Positions 1,242 to 42,517 of a DNA stretch of 52,200 nt are shown one piece after another. The notes below the pieces were generated by a model. That model searched no databases. It saw only the letters and a list, made by a program, of their open reading frames with translations, and was not told the origin of the DNA. The DNA comes from Armatimonadota bacterium. GTDB taxonomy: Bacteria > Armatimonadota > Armatimonadia > Armatimonadales > Armatimonadaceae. The stretch lies in NCBI GenBank assembly GCA_026392155.1, contig JAPLCP010000172.1, positions 1-52,200 of the forward strand, written 5' to 3'. Each line of letters starts with the position of its first letter. Within the stretch, counting starts at the first letter, position 1. The position numbers were made by a program, and so were the translations under genes.

Positions 1242-2756
1242 TTACGGATTAAAAGTAGCCTTGAACTCACCCAGAGCGCGGTTCAGGTTGTCCTCAATGT
1301 CCTGAGAGAAGGTCTTGGTCTCGGCGATCTTCACCGGGACGTCGGGGTACTTGTCCGCGACGTAGGCCAGGAACTCTTTCTCGAACTTGCGGACGGACTC
1401 TACCGGCAGGTCGTCCAGAGCGCCCGACGTCGCGGAGTAGATCGAGATGATCTGCCACTCCACACGCATCGGGGCGTACTGATCTTGCTTGAGCAGCTCG
1501 ACGAGGCGCTGGCCACGGGAGAGCTGGTGCTGGGTCGCTTTGTCAAGATCCGAGGCGAACTGGGCGAAGGCCTGCACCTCGCGGTACTGTGCCAGCTCCA
1601 GCTTGATGCGCCCACCGACTTTCTTGTCCTTCATCGCCTTGATCTGCGCCGAGCCACCCACGCGGCTCACCGAGACACCCACGTCAATGGCCGGGCGAAC
1701 GCCCGAGTTGAAGAGGTCGGTCTGAAGGAAGATCTGGCCATCGGTGATCGAGATCACGTTGGTCGGAATATAGGCAGAAACGTCTCCAGCCTGCGTCTCG
1801 ATGATTGGCAGCGCCGTGAGCGAGCCACCACCGCGCTCGTTGGAGAGCTTGGCGGCGCGCTCCAGAAGCCGGGAGTGCAGATAAAAAACGTCGCCCGGGT
1901 AGGCTTCGCGCCCTGGCGGGCGGCGCAGGAGCAGCGATACCTGGCGGTACGCGACGGCTTGTTTGGACAGATCATCGTAGATGATCAAGGCGTGGCGGCC
2001 TGAGTCTCGGAAGTACTCCGCCATCGCACAGCCGGCGTAGGGCGAGAGGTACTGGAGTGACGCGGGATCGGACGCCGTGGCGGCGATCACCGTGGTGTAC
2101 TCCATCGCGCCATTGGCGCGAAGCGCCTCAACGACCATACGAACCGTAGAGGCTTTTTGACCGATCGCCACGTAGAAACAGAACACGTCCTGCCCCTTCT
2201 GGTTGATGATCGTGTCAATTGCAATCGCGGTCTTACCCGTCTGGCGGTCGCCAATGATCAGCTCACGCTGTCCACGGCCAATGGCGAGCATCGAGTCAAT
2301 AGACTTGATCCCCGTGTACATTGGCTCTTTAACAGGCTGACGGTCCACAACGCCGGGAGCTTTGATCTCCAGAAGGCGTTGCTCAGCGGCGACGATAGGT
2401 CCACCGTCGTCAATGGGCTGACCGAGCGCATTGACCACACGGCCTACAAGCCCTTCGCCCACCGGCACTTCGATAATGCGCCCGGTACGCTTGACGGTGT
2501 CGCCCTCGCGGATTCCCTCGGCATTGCCAAGAATAATCGCGCCGACATTGTCCTCTTCCAGGTTGAGCGCCATTCCCATGACGCCGCCGGGGAACTCCAA
2601 AAGCTCCGCCACCGCGACATCACTCAGGCCGTAGATACGAGCAACGCCATCACCGACCTGAAGGACGGTACCGACGCCGACTTCCTCGACCCCGCTCTGA
2701 TAACTTGCCAGCTCTCGCTCTAGGATGCTGGTGACTTCATCGGGTCTTACTGCCAT
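1242..2756 (-). CDS. atpA: F1 ATP synthase subunit alpha
   Basis: Non-catalytic nucleotide-binding alpha subunit of the F1 head, acting on the cytoplasmic side of the membrane. The 504-residue length is typical. The N-terminal beta-barrel ([18 protein letters not shown]) is followed by the Walker A motif GDRQTGKT at residues 169-176 and the family signature with the arginine finger, [17 protein letters not shown]. The ATG at 2756 is preceded by a modest GGAAAA ribosome-binding site, 12 bases after atpH. It is the last gene of its operon: a strong terminator follows, so the gamma, beta and epsilon subunits must be encoded elsewhere. Confidence 0.98.
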
Positions 2757-2768
2757 AATTTTTCCGTT

Positions 2769-3311
2769 TTACTTTTTGGTAAGAAGCTGCTCGCGTAGTC
2801 GCTCCAGCTTCCCCTTAACCGTGCCATCCAGCACCGTGTCGCCAATACGCACCAGAATGCCCCCCATCAGGCTAGGATCCACGCTGGTAGTCAGCTCGAT
2901 ATCCTTGCCCGTGCGTGCTTCTAGCGCCTTCTCCAGTGCCGCAAGCTGCGCCGCGCTGAGAGGGACTGCCGTGGTAGCCGATGCGGAGACGACATTGTTA
3001 TGTGCCCGGACAAGGGCGTCAAACTCCGTCTTAGCATCGGCGAGCAAGTCCATGCGCCGCTTATCGGCCAGCAAGCTCAGAAACCCAAGGGTCGCCGGTG
3101 AGACGGCTTTGGAGAAAGCGGCATCAAGTACCATTTTCTTGCGACTCACCGTCGCCAGAGGGTGCCCAATCATGCGTGCCAGCGCCGCATTGCCCACAAG
3201 AGCCTCCGCGACATGTGCCAGATCCGCTGAGGTTTCCTTCAGCGTGTTGGTTGCCTTGGCCTGGTTGAACAGTGCCGCCGCGTAGCGACGGGAGACAGAC
3301 TCTTCGCGCAT
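2769..3311 (-). CDS. atpH: ATP synthase subunit delta (OSCP)
   Basis: Peripheral-stalk subunit that links the top of F1 to the b-subunit stalk. It has 180 residues, the normal length, with the typical opening SVSRRYAAALFNQAK and a C-terminal region ending MGGILVRIGDTVLDGTVKGKL, which matches the conserved delta C-terminus (GG+.++IGD.V.D.S). Its ATG shares one base with the atpF stop codon (TAATG), so it is probably translated by re-initiation after atpF. Confidence 0.96.
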   Translation of the reverse strand: MREESVSRRYAAALFNQAKATNTLKETSADLAHVAEALVGNAALARMIGHPLATVSRKKMVLDAAFSKAVSPATLGFLSLLADKRRMDLLADAKTEFDALVRAHNNVVSASATTAVPLSAAQLAALEKALEARTGKDIELTTSVDPSLMGGILVRIGDTVLDGTVKGKLERLREQLLTKK

Positions 3312-3817
3312 TACGCCTCCGCCACGCCCTTGGCGATGTACTCGTCAATCAGCTTGCCATGACGATCCGCATCCAGGCTCTCGCCGACCACTTTGGTCGT
3401 CGCGCCCAGAGCGAGATCTACGATCTGCTGACGTAGCGTGATCATTGCCTGCTCACGCTCGCGTTCGGCATCGGCTTCCGCTTTGCTGACAATCTCACGG
3501 GCTTGTGCCGTGGCATCGCTGACGATCTTATCGCGCGTGGCCTGAGCCTCTTTGATCGCACTGGAGATCTTCTCGCGGGCCTCGGACTCGATGGACTCAA
3601 GCCGAGACTCGTAGTCGCTCTTGAGCCGCTGCATCTCCCGCTGATCGGCATCAAGCCGGTCGTAGGTGCTAGCGATCTCGGTCTCGCGACTGGTGAGAAG
3701 GGTTCCAATGGGATCGAAGACGAGCTTCTTGGCGATCGCGTAGAGCGCACCAAAGCCCACGATGTTGACAACAATCAACGTCGGGTCAATGTTTAGGTCG
3801 CTCAGGATATTTGCCAT
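3311..3817 (-). CDS. atpF: ATP synthase subunit b
   Basis: Membrane-anchored peripheral stalk of the Fo sector. I start it at the ATG at 3817 (MANILSDLNIDPTL), because the frame upstream of this codon lacks a membrane segment and an ATG with good context, while a purine-rich AGGAAAAG lies upstream. This gives 168 residues: one N-terminal transmembrane helix (about residues 10-30, ending in FDPIGTLLTSRETEI, the usual post-helix segment) and then a long charged coiled coil rich in Glu, Arg, Lys and Ala. It sits between atpE and atpH in the common Fo order. Confidence 0.95.
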   Translation of the reverse strand: MANILSDLNIDPTLIVVNIVGFGALYAIAKKLVFDPIGTLLTSRETEIASTYDRLDADQREMQRLKSDYESRLESIESEAREKISSAIKEAQATRDKIVSDATAQAREIVSKAEADAEREREQAMITLRQQIVDLALGATTKVVGESLDADRHGKLIDEYIAKGVAEA

Positions 3818-34250: not shown

Positions 34251-35507
34251 ATGAAAATTCAAAATCTTGCGCTGGTGGCGCTGGCACTGACGGCAGTGGG
34301 GACGATGGCACGGGCCGACGACTGGACGCAGTGGCGTGGGCCGAAGCGCGATGGTGTCTCGCTGGAGAAGGGGCTGCTTAAGGCGTGGCCTGCCAGTGGG
34401 CCGAAGCTGATCTGGCAGGTGAAAGAGATTGGTTCAGGGTACTCCACGCCCGTAGTGGTGGAAAACCGGCTCTATGTTCTGAGCAACGAGGGGCTAGAGA
34501 ATGAGTTTGTCCGGGCCTACAGCGCCACCAATGGCAAGCAGCTCTGGTCTACGCGGCTTGGCGCGGTGGGCAACCCCAAGCAGCAGCCCAGCTACCCCGG
34601 CTCACGCTCCACGCCCACCGTGGATGGCAAGCTGCTCTACGCACTCGGCTCCGATGGTGACCTGGCGTGCGTCGAGACGGCAACAGGAAAGCTTGTCTGG
34701 AAGAAGAGCCTGCGAGCGGACTTTGGAGGGACGGCAGGTGTCTGGGCCTACTCCGAGTCGCCCCTCGTAGACGGCAACAAGGTGATTGTCTCGCCTGGTA
34801 GTGAGAGCGCCGCGATGGTGGCCTTAGATAAGAAAACGGGCGCAACCCTCTGGAAGTCCGCGATCCCAGGCGAGAAAGCCGCCAGCTACGCATCTGCGAT
34901 TGCGACCGAGATCGGCGGCGTGCGGCAGTATGTCCAGTACCTGAGTAAAGGTGTGGTCGGGGTGGAGGCCGCGACAGGCAAGCTGCTCTGGCGCTTCGAC
35001 AAGACCCTCGACACGCGCTTTGGGATGCATGCCCTCACGCCGATTGCCTCGACCAACTTCATCTACACCGGCGCAGCGTCGGCCAGTGGCGCGGCGAAGA
35101 TCAGCGCGGCGGCGGGGAGCTTCAGGGCAGACCCAGCCTATATCGAGCGCAAGGCTCCCAACGGCCTCGGGGGGGCAGTGCGCCTGGGCGACTATCTCTA
35201 CGGCACGTCGGGGCCGGTGCTGCTCTGTACCGAGTTCGCCACAGGAAAAGTGCTCTGGGAGGAGCGCAGCATCGGGTCATCGGCGATCTGCTCTGCCGAT
35301 GGCCTTCTCTTCCTGCACGGGGAGAACGGCGAGGTCGCGCTGGTTGAAGCCACCCCTGCAGGCTACAAAGAGAAGGGCCGTTTCGCGCCACCTGCTCAGC
35401 CGGATCGTGGCCAGAGCAAGGCGTGGGCACACCCGATTGTCGCCAATGGGAAACTCTATATCCGCGATCTGGGCTGCCTCTGGTGCTACGACATCAAGGC
35501 AAAGTAA
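34251..35507 (+). CDS. Secreted PQQ-type beta-propeller protein
   Basis: A 418-residue protein with a signal peptide (residues 1-22, ending MARA) followed by DDWTQWRGPKRDGVS, the standard opening of PQQ-like propeller proteins in planctomycetes. Repeated blades carry the pattern DG..LYALGSDGDLACVETATGKLVW and TGKLLWRFDKT (AxDxxTGxxxW type). There are no quinoprotein dehydrogenase catalytic residues visible, so it is more likely a binding or scaffolding protein than an enzyme. It stands alone, converging on the DUF2723 gene with a 14-base overlap. Confidence 0.9.
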   Translation: MKIQNLALVALALTAVGTMARADDWTQWRGPKRDGVSLEKGLLKAWPASGPKLIWQVKEIGSGYSTPVVVENRLYVLSNEGLENEFVRAYSATNGKQLWSTRLGAVGNPKQQPSYPGSRSTPTVDGKLLYALGSDGDLACVETATGKLVWKKSLRADFGGTAGVWAYSESPLVDGNKVIVSPGSESAAMVALDKKTGATLWKSAIPGEKAASYASAIATEIGGVRQYVQYLSKGVVGVEAATGKLLWRFDKTLDTRFGMHALTPIASTNFIYTGAASASGAAKISAAAGSFRADPAYIERKAPNGLGGAVRLGDYLYGTSGPVLLCTEFATGKVLWEERSIGSSAICSADGLLFLHGENGEVALVEATPAGYKEKGRFAPPAQPDRGQSKAWAHPIVANGKLYIRDLGCLWCYDIKAK

Positions 35508-37326
35508 GGCGCTTAAGCCCTGCCTCGACTTCTGAGTCACGGAAGATGAAGCTGGCCCCGGTGTAGTGCTCGCGGGCCAGCTCCTCTTGCCCTTGTTTCT
35601 CGGCAAGCTGGGCAAGCGCTTTATGGGCACTGAAGTAACGCACCATCACGTGGAGCTGGAGGGGATCACTTTCGTCTTCATTTCCATGGTTACGGTAGAC
35701 TCCACGGGTCTTGAGCTGTGGCCAGAGAGCCGCGTTTTGCGCCAGAAGCGCCGTGCTCTCAGGGACATTCCCCGGTTCGTAGAGGCGCTGGGTAATGCCC
35801 CACGGGACGCGTACAAAAGGCTGGAGCCTCTGATTCAGCGTGGGGAATCCGACCTCTGCCGGGCGATCATCTTGCCTATCATCGGAGACAAGGAGCACCG
35901 GACGGTTCTCTGCAAGGGCCATGCGAACCAGGAGCTGAAGGTACGTGCCATCCGCTGTCGCCTCACGGGACAGGCCATGAAGAGAGGGTAGGCTAGGCCA
36001 TTGACGCTGGAGATGAACAAAGTACCAGTCGGTGTCATTGCTGAGCGTCCCTTCCAACAAGTCCACATTCAGCACCGCGACATCGGGGCGCTGGTGTTTG
36101 ACAAACTTAAGATACCAGAGGGTAAAAACGGTGTTATTGGTCGCCAGAACCACCGCATTTTTGGGCGAGCTGGTCAAGATATTCGCTGCAAAATCCGCTT
36201 CGATAAAGTTGCTGCTCTTCTCTGTTGTCGCCAAGTGAGTGGTCATCTGTACGAGGGGAGTTAGAAGTGCCAGGATCGCCAGAGGGCGCACCACCGGGGG
36301 ACACTTGCCACTCAGCCACGTTCCCACCTGGCCCATGCCCACGGCAATCCAAGCGGCGACACAAAGATACGACGGAATGTAGTAGACATAGATATCCGCG
36401 ATCGCGTAGTTTGTCGCGTAGATAATGTCCACGATAAACACCCAGCCCGTCAGCGCCAAGATAGCTCGTTTGCGTTTCCCGAGCGCGATCATCCCCGGCA
36501 GCATAAAAGCCAGAAAGACACCCCCAAACTCTTTCCAGAGTGCGCCCGAGGCATAGCTCCAGAGCCGCAGGTGCCAGGTTCCTAGGGGCTGGGTAAACAT
36601 TAGCGGACGATACTGTGAGCCATTAACATGCTGGAAAAACCGGGGCCAAGTCTGCGGATCACCCCACTTGAGCGGCGAGTCACTGAAGTGCGCGGCGAGA
36701 GGAATATAGGCATAGAGAAGCAAGGGAAGCAGAAAAAGTGGCACGAGAGGCAAGAGCTTCTTGAAGCTGACTTTGTAAAGCGCTAATAACAGAAAGCCCG
36801 GCAGAAAAAGCGCCATCGTCAGGTTGTTGGTCAGGGAGAGACCATAGACCAGCACCAGTGACTTCAAGACAGGTTCGCCCCGCTCTAAGCGTACACTGAG
36901 CCAGAGAATCGTGCAGAGAAACAGCGCCGTGAGGGTATAGACCTCGCACGAGAGCGACTGCTGCCAGAGAGTCGGGGCAAAAGCAAGCAAAAGCGCTACG
37001 CTTACTGAGACAGCGCGTGAGGTCACGATGCTCGCAACAAAGCGATAGAACATCGCCACAGCTCCGGCTCCAAAGAGCGCAGTCATCAGATTGACGCGGG
37101 CGGCGGGCTCTTCGATCAGGGGCACGAGTCCAAAGAGAAACGCCCGTCCCAGAAGCGTGAAGAGCGGGTAGCCCGTGGGATGGCAGATCCCCAGCGTGTA
37201 CATCGCCGTCTCAAAGTCGCCGTCATCGCCCGTGTAGATCGTCCGGCACATGGTCGCGGCATAAACGACGGCGGCGAGGGCAAAGAGCAGCCACGCGATC
37301 TTACGGTCGGAGAGGGTTTGAAGCAC
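35494..37326 (-). CDS. DUF2723/TMEM260-like GT-C membrane protein
   Basis: A 610-residue protein with about ten to twelve helices in the first 400 residues. The first loop has TGDDGDFETAMYTLGICHPTGYPLF, the signature of DUF2723 (PF11028), whose animal relative TMEM260 is an O-mannosyltransferase. The C-terminal 200 residues are soluble and probably extracellular, with helical repeat character near the end (SAHKALAQLAEKQGQEELAREHY). It likely glycosylates an exported protein or lipid. There is no operon partner. Confidence 0.87.
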   Translation of the reverse strand: MLQTLSDRKIAWLLFALAAVVYAATMCRTIYTGDDGDFETAMYTLGICHPTGYPLFTLLGRAFLFGLVPLIEEPAARVNLMTALFGAGAVAMFYRFVASIVTSRAVSVSVALLLAFAPTLWQQSLSCEVYTLTALFLCTILWLSVRLERGEPVLKSLVLVYGLSLTNNLTMALFLPGFLLLALYKVSFKKLLPLVPLFLLPLLLYAYIPLAAHFSDSPLKWGDPQTWPRFFQHVNGSQYRPLMFTQPLGTWHLRLWSYASGALWKEFGGVFLAFMLPGMIALGKRKRAILALTGWVFIVDIIYATNYAIADIYVYYIPSYLCVAAWIAVGMGQVGTWLSGKCPPVVRPLAILALLTPLVQMTTHLATTEKSSNFIEADFAANILTSSPKNAVVLATNNTVFTLWYLKFVKHQRPDVAVLNVDLLEGTLSNDTDWYFVHLQRQWPSLPSLHGLSREATADGTYLQLLVRMALAENRPVLLVSDDRQDDRPAEVGFPTLNQRLQPFVRVPWGITQRLYEPGNVPESTALLAQNAALWPQLKTRGVYRNHGNEDESDPLQLHVMVRYFSAHKALAQLAEKQGQEELAREHYTGASFIFRDSEVEAGLKRLTLP

Positions 37327-37376: not shown

Positions 37377-38498
37377 TCATAGGACGCCTCGCAAGTAGTC
37401 CGGGCCATCCAGTGCGCCTTGGGGAGGGACGATTTTCGAGAAGGCGTCGTTGGTCTCTTGGAGGGCAAACAGCAAGGGGAACTTTCCCGGAGGCGGGCTG
37501 GGGGTGTACGTCCCTGCCCCCCAAGCACGGCCCTCGGCAAAAGCGCGGAGCTTACGAATCTTTGCGCTGGCCCGGTCAAGAGTGAAAATGCCCTCCATTT
37601 TTCCGTCGAGTCCGCGCTGAGCATTTCCTGTCTGCATGGCATAGTCACCGGTGAAGCGAATCTCAACCGTCTCCGCGGTTTTCTGGAGGATCGTCCCTAC
37701 AAACCGGGCTCGCTTTACCTCACCTACCTGCCAGAAGTTAGGCTCCCCTCGGACAAAGTCCGTCAGGTGGTAGCGAGCAAGCCTTGCGATCAGAGTGGGA
37801 GGCAGAGCAAACTCCCCGGTTGCGGGTGCCTCCGCCATCGCACGCACCTCGTCGGGCAAGACCCAGAGATGGTCACGCGCCGCCCCCTTATTGAGCTCGT
37901 GGCAGCCTGCAGGCAGGGGATGAATTCGGACAAAGAGACGCAAGATGGACGATCCCGCAGGCGCAAGGCGTGTGAAATCGCTGCCAAGCTCACTGGCGGC
38001 AACGGTCACCCGAGCGGGCGGATTTTGGGCGAACTTCTCCTGCCCAGTTTTTAATAGCTGTAGCAGACGCTCCACATCGCGGTTATTGTTGAAGCCGTAT
38101 GCCGCTCCATCCGCCCCGGCAACATAGTGTCCTTGCGCCGTCTGCCCGCTTAAGATTCGGGGGTTGACGGTCTGGGCCATCGCCATGAACCAGTTGCGAG
38201 CCGGAGACTTTCCATTCTGGATTTCGTGGGTATCGCCGGTAACGGGAATAAATTCCTGCTGAAGGGATTTGATCACGCGGGGATCGCTAAACTTGGACGC
38301 ACGGTCCAATTTCCCGTTGTTTCAAACACAGCCCAGAGGATTGCCGTTCATGATCCAGAGATACAGAGGCTTGCCCGTGCGCTGCGCTTCAAGCCGAGCC
38401 GCCATGATATTGGTGCGCCAGGGAATCTGTAGCCAGAGTTCTTCTTCCGGAGTGGGGAGCACTACCTTGATCTTCTGATCCAGCGTGTCAAGAGTCAT
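37377..38498 (-). CDS. Thioredoxin-fold protein with in-frame UGA: candidate selenoprotein
   Basis: From the ATG at 38498 (AAGGA eight bases upstream) the frame reads 58 codons, meets TGA at 38324-38322, and continues in the same frame for 314 more codons to 37377. The first part is a thioredoxin-like segment (PWRTNIMAARLEAQRTGKPL, YLWIMNGNPLGCV), the UGA falls exactly in the redox position (Cys57-Val-UGA59), and the following NNGKLDRASKFSDPRVIKSL continues the fold. A hairpin suitable as a bacterial SECIS follows. With selenocysteine the product is 373 residues. If UGA is a true stop, the rest would need the TTG at 38309 and the gene would be a pseudogene. The downstream half is intact, which argues for read-through. 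The function is probably a redox or disulfide role; the C-terminal domain is unrecognised. Confidence 0.7.
38291..38312 (-). other. SECIS-like hairpin after the in-frame UGA
   Basis: On the minus strand TTGGAC (38309-38304) and GTCCAA (38298-38293) make a perfect 6-bp stem with loop CGTGC, and can extend with A-T pairs across one bulged G. The loop starts 18 bases after the UGA and has G as its second base. Both features meet the general description of bacterial SECIS elements. Confidence 0.55.
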
Positions 38499-38654
38499 CG
38501 TTGTTTCCTTACAAGCAAACCATTCCTGCTTTTCTTTGCACTATACCTGATGGCAAGCGGGTGAGTTGGTGGGTGGTCGAGGATTTTTTGTGTGTGATCC
38601 GATACAATCGGGCGGGCACTTTAGCGCCTCACACTTTCATCACGACAAAGAATT

Positions 38655-40136
38655 ATGGCAAAACAAACTATCACCACGCGCGAAAAAGACTACTCGCAGT
38701 GGTATCTCGATATCGTCAAAGAGGCAGATCTTTCTGACTACTCCCCGGTGCGTGGCTGTATGGTCATCAAGCCCACGGGCTACGCGATCTGGGAGATGAT
38801 CCAGCAGGGGCTCGACAAGCGCATTAAAGACACGGGCCATGTCAATGCCTACTTCCCGCTGTTTATTCCCGTGAGCTTTCTGACCAAAGAAGCGCAGCAC
38901 GTCGAGGGCTTCGCGCCGGAGGTGGCCGTGGTGACGCACCACAGGCTCGAGAGCGACGGCAAGGGCGGGCTGGTTCCGGCAGCGCCACTAGACGAGCCGC
39001 TGGTCGTCCGCCCGACCTCGGAGGCGATTATCGGAGATAGCTTCTCGCGCTGGGTGCAGTCGTGGCGCGACCTGCCGCTGCTGATCAACCAGTGGGCCAA
39101 CGTGGTGCGCTGGGAGCTGCGCACGCGCCCGTTTCTGCGCACCGCAGAGTTTCTCTGGCAGGAGGGCCACACCGCCCACACCACCCACGATGAGGCCGAG
39201 GAAGAGACGCTAAAAATTCTTCATGAGGTCTACTCGGACTTTCTGGAGAACGTCATGGCGATCCCGGTCTTCAAGGGGCAGAAAACCGAGAAAGAGAAGT
39301 TCGCGGGGGCCCTGCGCACCTACGCCATCGAGGCGATGATGCAGGACGGCAAGGCGCTCCAAGCGGGCACGAGCCACAATCTCGGGCAGAACTTTGCGAA
39401 AGCTTTCGAAATTAAGTTCCAGGGCCAGAACCAGAACGAGATCGAGTATGCCTGGACCACGTCTTGGGGCGTCTCGACCCGTCTGATCGGTGCACTCATC
39501 ATGGCGCACTCCGACGACGACGGCCTGGTGCTGCCGCCGCGCCTCGCTCCAACCCAGGCGGTGATCGTCCCGATCTACAAGACCGACGACGAAAAAGCCG
39601 CGACGCTGGCCGCCGCCGAGCAGCTCAAGGCCGCGATTGGCGATAAAGCCCGTGTCAAGATCGACGCGCGGGACAACGTGACGCCAGGCTTTAAGTTCAA
39701 CGAGTGGGAGGTCAAGGGCATCCCCGTGCGGATCGAGATCGGGCCGCGTGATGTCGCCAACCAGACCGTGGTGCTGGGCCGCCGGGACCGTCCGGGCAAA
39801 GAGGGCAAGCGCTTCGTCAGCTGGGCCGAGCTCCCCGAGGCTCTTCCTGCGCTTCTCGAAGAGATCCAGACTGCGCTCTACGACCGCGCCAAGGCCTTCC
39901 GCGACGCCCATGTGACGGATGTCGCCAGCTACGCCGAGCTAGCGGCTGCTGTCGAGACCGGGTTTGCCCGCGCTTGGTGGGCAGGCTCGCGCGAGGACGA
40001 AGACAAGATCCAGCTAGAGCTAAAAGCCACGATCCGCTGCATCCCGCTGGAGGCAGACCAACCCGGCGGCGAGGGCGTCTGTGTGCTCACCGGCCAGCCC
40101 GCCACCCAGCAAGTGCTGTTTGCGCGGAGCTACTGA
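38655..40136 (+). CDS. proS: Prolyl-tRNA synthetase, archaeal/eukaryote type
   Basis: Charges tRNA-Pro with proline in the cytosol. The 493-residue length and the layout are those of the ProS type without the bacterial editing insertion: class II motif 1 around GYAIWEMIQQGLDKRIKDTG, TSEAIIGDSFSRWV, motif 2 (LRTRPFLRTAEFLWQEGHTAH), the histidine-rich AGTSHNLGQNFAKAFEI region and motif 3 (GVSTRLIGALIMAH). The anticodon-binding domain (VIVPIYKTDDEKAATLAAAEQL) and the zinc-like C-terminal domain end in the typical terminal Tyr (LFARSY). It is transcribed alone. Upstream a GATACAAT (about 38604) may be a -10. Confidence 0.97.
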   Translation: MAKQTITTREKDYSQWYLDIVKEADLSDYSPVRGCMVIKPTGYAIWEMIQQGLDKRIKDTGHVNAYFPLFIPVSFLTKEAQHVEGFAPEVAVVTHHRLESDGKGGLVPAAPLDEPLVVRPTSEAIIGDSFSRWVQSWRDLPLLINQWANVVRWELRTRPFLRTAEFLWQEGHTAHTTHDEAEEETLKILHEVYSDFLENVMAIPVFKGQKTEKEKFAGALRTYAIEAMMQDGKALQAGTSHNLGQNFAKAFEIKFQGQNQNEIEYAWTTSWGVSTRLIGALIMAHSDDDGLVLPPRLAPTQAVIVPIYKTDDEKAATLAAAEQLKAAIGDKARVKIDARDNVTPGFKFNEWEVKGIPVRIEIGPRDVANQTVVLGRRDRPGKEGKRFVSWAELPEALPALLEEIQTALYDRAKAFRDAHVTDVASYAELAAAVETGFARAWWAGSREDEDKIQLELKATIRCIPLEADQPGGEGVCVLTGQPATQQVLFARSY

Positions 40137-40181: not shown

Positions 40182-40907
40182 TTACCACGTAAACCGGGGG
40201 GCTTGGATGCCGCCCTCGATCCAGAGAAACTTCCCGTTGGTCTCGCTTGCCGGTGCGGCGACAATTTTGCAAACTAAGTCGGCGGCTTTCTCGGGCGGGT
40301 CGCCGCCCGTGCGCTCCACTAAGTCCGCCCAGCCGGGCATGCCACCAAACTCTTTAATGTCTTCCCACATCTCGGTCTTGACCTCGCCGGGATGGATCGC
40401 GCAGCACGAGAGCTCGCTGCCGACCAGCTCGGCGGCGAGCTGGCGGGTGAAGAAGTTGAGGGTGTACTTGGAGAGAATGTAGTCCGCGCCGGAGCCCTCA
40501 GGCGGGGCGAAACCGGCGGCGGAGCTGACATTGATGATCCGCCCCCAGCCTAGCGCTTTCATCCCCGGCGCACAGAGGCGGGCGAGAAGATAGGGCGCGT
40601 AGATATTGGTGAGCAGGGTCTGCCGCCAGCGCTCCGGGTCGCTCTCGGTGATCTTGTCGAAGCCATTGTGAACCCCCGCGTTGTTGACCAGCACCGAGAC
40701 CGGGCCAAGCTCTGCGAGCACTTGCTCCATTGCCGCCGGGTCGCTGGCATCCCCAACACAGATCTTTCCGGCCGTCAGCGCTGCGGTCTCTTCCAGCTTC
40801 TCCCGCCGCCGCCCGACCAATGCTAAAGAGAAACCTTCTCGGGCCAGTGCCACGGCGGCGGCTTGGCCCACGCCACTGCCCGCGCCGGTGACAAGAGCCG
40901 TTTTCAA
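40182..40907 (-). CDS. Short-chain dehydrogenase/reductase
   Basis: A 241-residue SDR: TGAGSGVGQAAAVAL at the N-terminus binds the dinucleotide, VNNAG lies mid-domain, and INVSSAAGF with YILSKYTLNFF gives the Ser-Tyr-Lys centre. GRRREKLEE after the second strand suggests NADP(H) use. I start it at the TTG at 40907, which overlaps the prfC stop (TTGA) and has AGGA ten bases before, because the longer frame runs far into prfC. Translationally coupled to prfC, but the two have no evident shared role. Confidence 0.88.
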   Translation of the reverse strand: MKTALVTGAGSGVGQAAAVALAREGFSLALVGRRREKLEETAALTAGKICVGDASDPAAMEQVLAELGPVSVLVNNAGVHNGFDKITESDPERWRQTLLTNIYAPYLLARLCAPGMKALGWGRIINVSSAAGFAPPEGSGADYILSKYTLNFFTRQLAAELVGSELSCCAIHPGEVKTEMWEDIKEFGGMPGWADLVERTGGDPPEKAADLVCKIVAAPASETNGKFLWIEGGIQAPRFTW

Positions 40908-42517
40908 GCCACCGTTTCCTGGGACTCGGAGAGGTCGAGTGCGGTGGAGAGAAATCTGAGCTTGGGATTGTTCTCGATAATATGGTTCATGCCCCACGGG
41001 CTCTCAAACAGACAGACAAAGTTGCCAAAGCTATCCTCGACGCGGCGCGTGCCCATACCCCAGTAAACGTCTCGAATCGCCTCTTCCGGGCCTTGGATCC
41101 AGCGGGCGTGGTTGTAGGGCAAGCGGTCGAGGCCCGTGTCCACGCCGTACTCCGAGAGCAGGCGGAACTGAATCACCTCGAACTGGAGCTGCCCGACCAC
41201 GCCCAAGATCGGCTCGGTGCGCCCCGCGTTGATCTCGTGGAAAAGCTGCACGACCCCTTCTTCACTGAGCTGCTCGATGCCTTTTTGGAACTGCTTGTAC
41301 TTCTCGGACTTGCGGTTTCGTAGCACACCAAAGTGCTCCGGGGCAAAGCGCGGGAAGCCACGAAACTGCACCGGTGTTCCTGTGCAGACCGTGTCGCCCA
41401 GCTGGAAGACGCCCGGGTTGGTGAGGCCGATGATATCGCCGGGATAGGCCACGTCCACCGTCTCCCGATCCGACGCAAAGAGCTTCTGGGGGCGCGTCAG
41501 GCGCACGGACTTCTTGGAGCGGGGATTGAGGGCCACCATATCGCGCTCAAAGCGCCCCGAGACCACGCGCAAAAACGCCACGCGGTCGCGATGATTCGGG
41601 TCCATGTTGGCCTGGATCTTAAAAACAAAGCCCCGGAACTCTGGCTCGCTCGGCTCAATCTCACCGTCTTGACTTGGTCGGGAAGTGGGGGCCGGCGCGA
41701 GCTCGATAAAGCGCTTCAGGAACCGCTCGACCCCAAAGTTGGTGACGGCGCTGCCAAAGAACAGCGGCGTGATCTCCCCTGCCGCGATCCGCACCGGGTC
41801 GAGCGGCTCGCCGGCCACATCGAGTAGCTCAATGTCCTCGCGGAGCTTCTGCGCCGGGCCACTGCCGATAATCTCGTCGAGAGTCGGGTCGCTCAGATCC
41901 ACAATGCGAACCGGGGCTTTGTTCGCGCCGTGCTGCACGCGATCATAGAGGTGGAGCTGGCTGGTCTGGCGGTCATACACCCCCTGGAACTGGTCACCGT
42001 CGCCAATTGGCCAGAAGACCGGCGCGGAGCGAATCCCCAGCACTTCCTCCAAGTTGGCCATGAGATCGAGTGGATCGAGGCCGGGGCGGTCCATCTTATT
42101 GATAAACGTGAAGATAGGAATCCCGCGCTGGCGACAGACGGCAAAGAGCTTGATGGTCTGCGGCTCGACCCCACGGGCGTTGTCGATCAGCATCACGGCG
42201 CTATCGGCCGCGACCAGCGTGCGATAGGTGTCCTCCGAGAAGTCCTGGTGGCCCGGCGTGTCGAGCAAGTTCAGCACGCAGCCGCCGTACTCGAACTGAA
42301 GCACTGTGGACGTGATCGAGATGCCGCGCTGCTTCTCCAGCTCCATCCAGTCCGAGGTCGCCTGCCGCCGGTTCTTCTTGGCCGTCACCGACCCGGCAAG
42401 CTGAATCGCGCCCCCGTAGAGAAGCAGCTTCTCCGTCAGAGTCGTCTTTCCCGCGTCGGGGTGGGAGATAATGGCAAACGTGCGCCGCCGCGCAATCTCT
42501 GTCTCTAAATCGCTCAT
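40904..42517 (-). CDS. prfC: Peptide chain release factor 3
   Basis: GTPase that removes RF1/RF2 from the ribosome after termination. The 537-residue length is typical. G1 is SHPDAGKTTLTEKLL (residues 18-32), followed by the RF3-type AGSVTAKKNRRQATSDW and RGISITSTVLQF switch I, G3 DTPGHQDFSED and G4 INKMDRPG. The C-terminal domains contain AFLRVVSGRFERDM and GVVGQLQFEVIQFRL, as in RF3 and not in EF-G. An extended -10 lies 12 bases upstream of the ATG, so the leader is very short. Confidence 0.97.
   Translation of the reverse strand: MSDLETEIARRRTFAIISHPDAGKTTLTEKLLLYGGAIQLAGSVTAKKNRRQATSDWMELEKQRGISITSTVLQFEYGGCVLNLLDTPGHQDFSEDTYRTLVAADSAVMLIDNARGVEPQTIKLFAVCRQRGIPIFTFINKMDRPGLDPLDLMANLEEVLGIRSAPVFWPIGDGDQFQGVYDRQTSQLHLYDRVQHGANKAPVRIVDLSDPTLDEIIGSGPAQKLREDIELLDVAGEPLDPVRIAAGEITPLFFGSAVTNFGVERFLKRFIELAPAPTSRPSQDGEIEPSEPEFRGFVFKIQANMDPNHRDRVAFLRVVSGRFERDMVALNPRSKKSVRLTRPQKLFASDRETVDVAYPGDIIGLTNPGVFQLGDTVCTGTPVQFRGFPRFAPEHFGVLRNRKSEKYKQFQKGIEQLSEEGVVQLFHEINAGRTEPILGVVGQLQFEVIQFRLLSEYGVDTGLDRLPYNHARWIQGPEEAIRDVYWGMGTRRVEDSFGNFVCLFESPWGMNHIIENNPKLRFLSTALDLSESQETVA

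Follow-up and report, generated by a model that had tools for sequence, protein, structure and literature searches.

Does the single in-frame TGA of a minus-strand gene in the window (the whole stretch of 52,200 nucleotides analysed here) interrupt the gene, or is it read as selenocysteine (Sec)? The original prediction, made from the sequence, took it for a Sec codon in the redox motif of a thioredoxin-fold protein, and proposed an alignment of homologues and a search of the genome for selA, selB, selD and tRNA-Sec as checks. The features on which the question turns are as follows.

37377..38498, minus strand: gene almost certainly encoding a 373-residue selenoprotein in which residue 59 is Sec (translation with TGA as U)
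38506..38510, minus strand: AAGGA resembling a Shine-Dalgarno sequence, 7 nt ahead of the start codon (read directly from the sequence)
38498-38496, minus strand: ATG start codon
38328..38330, minus strand: codon of Cys57, two residues before Sec and candidate resolving Cys of the C-x-U motif
38322..38324, minus strand: UGA codon almost certainly read as Sec (U59), from the family alignment (UGA 29/30, Cys 1/30) and the same codon in a paralogue
37379-37377, minus strand: TGA, the true stop of the gene

Re-reading the sequence bears out the frame as first described, with AAGGA ahead of an ATG at 38498, one in-frame TGA at 38324-38322 and 314 sense codons after it. The UGA does lie two residues after a Cys, Cys57, in the motif GNPLGCV-U-NNGKLDR.

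Conservation of the UGA codon

The source genome holds a full-length paralogue (C181:401-1597) with 40% identity and a UGA at the identical codon (GCT-U-NNG against GCV-U-NNG). When 291 genomes from the phylum were searched with a profile, 55 proved to hold relatives, almost all of which have a single in-frame TGA, and across relatives in 50 genomes protein identity is 30-60% on both sides of the UGA. The family alignment extends over both the part ahead of this codon and the part behind it, and stops close to the final TGA. Of the 30 members of the closest subfamily (alignment A2), 29 carry UGA in the Sec column; the remaining one, L049, has Cys there (S-C-D-D-C). In further relatives lacking UGA the column holds Cys in L086 and L087 and Ser in L083. 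Cys homologues are few (L049, L086 and L087), and the rows without Sec fall in at least two separate places of the tree. The column thus carries UGA or rarely Cys, as the prediction would have it. Cys57 is kept in at least 90% of alignment rows, with Thr in L093. A recent nonsense mutation or a sequencing error in an ordinary Cys-containing gene, the rival that the prediction itself had named, would look alike in a single genome with one isolated UGA in an open frame, but the same UGA in the paralogue and in about 50 genomes, with the conserved and covarying hairpin described below, makes it untenable.

Selenocysteine machinery and the use of UGA

The source assembly (4.77 Mb in 228 contigs, 97% complete) contains all four genes sought: selA, selB and selD, each above its cut-off, and a tRNA-Sec that scores 64 bits against a cut-off of 47 and has the anticodon TCA according to ARAGORN. 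Its selD has an in-frame UGA of its own. Genome-wide reassignment of UGA, for example to Trp or Gly, would leave the present frame open just as well. However, the release factor RF2 (prfB) is present, TGA terminates the window's genes for prolyl-tRNA synthetase and RF3 as well as others confirmed by Pfam, and the SelA and SelB frames are open under the standard code. The presence of RF2 and the TGA-ended genes indicate that UGA is an ordinary stop in this organism, and we regard reassignment as having a negligible chance of being correct.

Across the phylum, a selA match was found in 46 of the 50 genomes with a UGA-bearing member and in 103 of the 241 others (Fisher p 2e-11, a value that is only indicative because the genomes are related and not independent). 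The four genomes with UGA members and no selA match (G012, G013, G026 and G069) are all fragmented assemblies; selB is above its cut-off in G012 and G013, and tRNA-Sec is present in G012. One further genome (G004) has only weak selA pieces (3.7e-14), yet strong tRNA-Sec and selB. Of the genomes whose only relatives lack the UGA, two (G073 and G143) have no selA match and one (G106) has.

A hairpin behind the UGA

38293..38309, minus strand: SECIS-like hairpin UUGGAC-CGUGC-GUCCAA, loop at 38303-38299 (from folding, controls and covariation)

The predicted hairpin has the 6-bp stem and the 5-nt loop with G second that were claimed for it, while its 5' arm starts 13 nt after the UGA and not 15. 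The bSECIS model allows a loop of 3-9 nt, a stem of 4-16 bp, G in the first two loop positions, a UGA-to-loop distance of 16-37 nt and a minimum free energy of -7.5 kcal/mol or lower (PMC13188914). The loop, stem and G of the window hairpin lie within these limits, as does the distance of 18 nt from the UGA to the start of the loop. The energy does so only when the stem is extended (-8.2 kcal/mol), the isolated stem (-6.6 kcal/mol) falling slightly short. When the 61-nt stretch is folded alone its stability is not above that of shuffles (z +1.07), and the evidence for a SECIS element therefore rests on comparison. Only 0.5% of synonymous-codon controls, which keep the protein, equal the window hairpin.

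We compared the best hairpin satisfying the bSECIS loop and spacing rules at each of 65 loci. The mean energy is -8.13 kcal/mol against -3.25 with random synonymous codons (SD of set means 0.28; lowest control -4.11 kcal/mol), and at other in-frame offsets it is -1.2 to -2.8 kcal/mol. In 32 distinct main-subfamily sequences the five core pairs are 83% paired against 71 +/- 1.9 in shuffles, two-sided changes number 15 against 4.5 +/- 1.7, and compensatory changes occur in all five pairs, the shuffle being a control that ignores relatedness. Every covariation measure falls when the 3' arm is slid out of register, a control that retains relatedness but favours the true register. This family-wide signal is overwhelming, and shows that the hairpin is conserved as RNA and not merely through the protein. 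Rfam gave no match at the locus.

A programmed stop, readthrough by a near-cognate tRNA, or two separate proteins (58 aa, and 310 aa from the TTG at 38309) would also account for a UGA here, and the downstream TTG does open a 310-aa frame. A split, however, would leave the predicted thioredoxin fold without its first beta-strand and the turn that bears Sec; moreover, non-UGA homologues have Cys in place of the UGA, the hairpin is SECIS-like and the Sec machinery co-occurs. We consider these explanations very improbable. Decoding as Sec is what the comparative evidence shows, with the Sec genes of the genome, the UGA and Cys homologues and the conserved hairpin lending it strong support, and the UGA of the gene at 38498-37377 on the minus strand is almost certainly read as selenocysteine, as originally predicted.

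Fold and proposed redox role

38013..38498, minus strand: predicted N-terminal thioredoxin-fold domain, residues 1-162 (AlphaFold2 pLDDT 94.3; Foldseek probability 1.00)
37380..38012, minus strand: predicted C-terminal beta-rich domain, residues 163-373 (pLDDT 94.8 in the AlphaFold2 model of the full-length protein)

The thioredoxin fold, at first a guess from sequence, is supported by the AlphaFold2 prediction and by Foldseek, in which the N-terminal domain matches 3f9u, 3ira, 7tkv and 1sen (ERp18) with probability 1.00. With the whole protein no PDB match was obtained at E<=0.001, whereas the N-terminal domain alone did match; the C-terminal domain has no Pfam family. The model agrees with the definition of the thioredoxin fold, beta-alpha-beta-alpha-beta-beta-alpha with a redox residue where the first core helix begins: in it Sec59 directly precedes helix 60-67. 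In weak HMMER alignments to 3f9u (E 0.13) and 3ira (E 0.18), Sec59 is paired with the first Cys of the CxxC motif and Gly62 with the second. The site is therefore not a classical CxxC but C-x-U-N-N-G, with Sec at the nucleophile position and Gly for the second Cys.

These observations suggest the following mechanism. The hairpin, lying 13-29 nt behind the UGA at codon 59, would guide SelB as it delivers Sec-tRNA there, and translation would carry on to give the 373-residue protein. The thioredoxin-fold domain made up by residues 1-162 would be of the Thioredoxin_7/DsbH/ERp18 type; in it Sec59 would stand where CxxC has its first, nucleophilic Cys, with Gly in place of the second (U-N-N-G). Cys57 is the likely selenenylsulfide partner of Sec59, and the choice of substrate is presumably set by the C-terminal beta-rich domain. 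With Sec at the nucleophile position, Gly for the second Cys and Cys57 as likely partner, the fold and motif make the protein most likely a thiol/selenol oxidoreductase.

It is also conceivable, though unlikely, that the Sec site binds a metal or a selenium species and does not carry out thiol-disulfide exchange. The absence of the second CxxC Cys is in keeping with this, as is the Gly at the cis-Pro position, since loss of the cis-Pro in thioredoxin folds can permit metal binding; Gly123 aligns with the presumed cis-Pro of 3f9u in a weak HMMER alignment (AQPFYV against AQGFYV). Against it, a Cys lies two residues before Sec almost invariably in the main subfamily and next to Sec in others, as is expected of a redox pair. 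A redox pair of Sec59 and Cys57 is thus likely, and we hold with high confidence that this is a selenoprotein in which SelB and the hairpin direct Sec to codon 59 of a thioredoxin-fold domain, and which is likely a thiol/selenol oxidoreductase.

A family with several subfamilies

The gene belongs to a whole unlisted family with several subfamilies, a point absent from the original prediction. Further subfamilies have the motifs NGHPLxCT-U-NNGV..RQ.VW, FGDPRGHC-U-QNG, DGRMxxGRC-U-GG and LFGRLDEQLC-U-TN. Many relatives have a hydrophobic, signal-like N-terminus which, by eye, is absent from the window protein and its C181 paralogue. Thioredoxin-fold selenoproteins have probably radiated across the phylum into five or more motif classes (GCTUNNG with downstream LF or VW, GHCUQNG, GRCUGG and LCUTN), with Sec nearly obligatory and Cys seldom in its place. 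If so, methods that depend on Sec/Cys homologue pairs would tend to overlook such families.

Several members are of separate interest. A third, distant relative in the source genome (L006:2466-3443, on contig C225 of G000, minus strand) has its UGA in GRC-U-GGAFATRAVSF together with a strong hairpin (ACACGG-GCC-GUGU), and its neighbour is a redoxin-like gene (CGTTW). In this relative Cys and Sec are adjacent, and it seems to represent a further selenoprotein subfamily that is unlisted. Four loci with FGDPRGHC-U-QNG (L078, L077, L081 and L084), in which Cys directly precedes Sec, share the hairpin CCAGAC/GUCUGG and form a separate, strongly supported clade. The relative with Ser at the Sec column (L083:603-1760, GHPLGTTSSHG) is from a genome (G143) that is 97% complete and has no selA match, and is possibly a relic or repurposed form.

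Genomic context and significance

window 38655-40136, plus strand: prolyl-tRNA synthetase
window 35494-37326, minus strand: TMEM260-like glycosyltransferase
window 40904-42517, minus strand: release factor RF3

No neighbourhood common to the window gene and other family members was found, and in the main subfamily no gene neighbour other than dnaK is shared beyond one genus. The C181 paralogue (L005:401-1597) is divergent from dnaK (1744-3528), after which come small heat shock protein, DnaJ and HspR-like genes, and dnaK lies within about 5 kb of a family gene in four genomes from a single genus (L109, L110, L112 and L113). The setting of the paralogue beside dnaK hints at a stress-response context.

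Standard gene callers stop at codon 58 or start after the Sec, and a class of redox enzymes is therefore probably mis-annotated in the phylum. The family also adds a predicted active-site arrangement, with Sec as nucleophile, no second Cys and a partner Cys two residues upstream, and suggests that the phylum uses selenium more widely than the published catalogue would indicate.

Comparison with known selenoprotein families

No Pfam model reaches its cut-off for family members, and NCBIfam gave only sub-threshold matches, to VPGUxxT selenoproteins and their relatives. Among the models for known families with a CxU motif, NF041203, NF041198, NF041072 and PF13192 have no match in family members. 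Profile matches to PR3/myeloblastin and to beta-lactamases (E-values 0.12 or worse) were dismissed as chance. Table 1 of a 2026 review lists 119 prokaryotic selenoprotein families and subfamilies, none of which matches the present family, and has CxU motifs only in rhodanese form 3, UshA-like, ferredoxin-thioredoxin reductase and Sec.1 (PF13192); the review makes no mention of Armatimonadota or Planctomycetes (PMC13188914). Nor does the deep-Sep paper. Our literature search found no paper joining Armatimonadota with selenocysteine or Fimbriimonas with selenoprotein, and the motif strings CTUNNG and HPLGCTU are absent from the selenoprotein literature searched. With no library model over its cut-off and nothing matching in the review, we rate this as a new family of a known kind: a real selenoprotein family that is, as far as checked, undescribed in Pfam, NCBIfam and the 2026 catalogue. 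Two scans of wider genome contigs found nothing; these used narrow peptides of one member, or Sec back-translated as Cys, and so do not show absence from other phyla. The nine matches to a DNA pattern for the Sec motif in viral contigs are chance ones, none of them recognised as a relative by HMM, and no relatives were found in plasmids.

Four known systems invite comparison. The thioredoxin-like selenoprotein Sec.1 (PF13192) has the CxU spacing in a thioredoxin-like protein (PMC13188914), but PF13192 matches 0 of 30 members here. The Trx7/PDZ domain selenoprotein NF041199 is likewise a selenoprotein with a Trx7 domain; it differs in its CxxU motif and PDZ domain (PMC13188914), and gives only weak matches here, 19.8 bits of 300 in the distant relative L076. 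The VPGUxxT family (NF041382/NF041383) shares a thioredoxin-like N-terminal part, and the weak match spans the Sec region, but its motif is VPGUxxT whereas here it is C-x-U-N-N-G in a 370-residue protein with a different C-terminal domain; members scanned singly score 12.8-29.2 bits with NF041383 (best L076, at 29.2) against a cut-off of 275, and the window protein gives no match. The fourth system comprises Thioredoxin_7 (PF13899) and Thioredox_DsbH (PF03190), with the structures 3f9u, 3ira, 7tkv and 1sen. PF13899 stays below its gathering cut-off of 27 bits (best E 0.0059 in alignment A2, 20 bits in L076). The predicted fold is common to all, with Sec on the first Cys of CxxC, while identity to these structures is 14-17%, and the present family has Gly for the second Cys and an extra Cys upstream of Sec.
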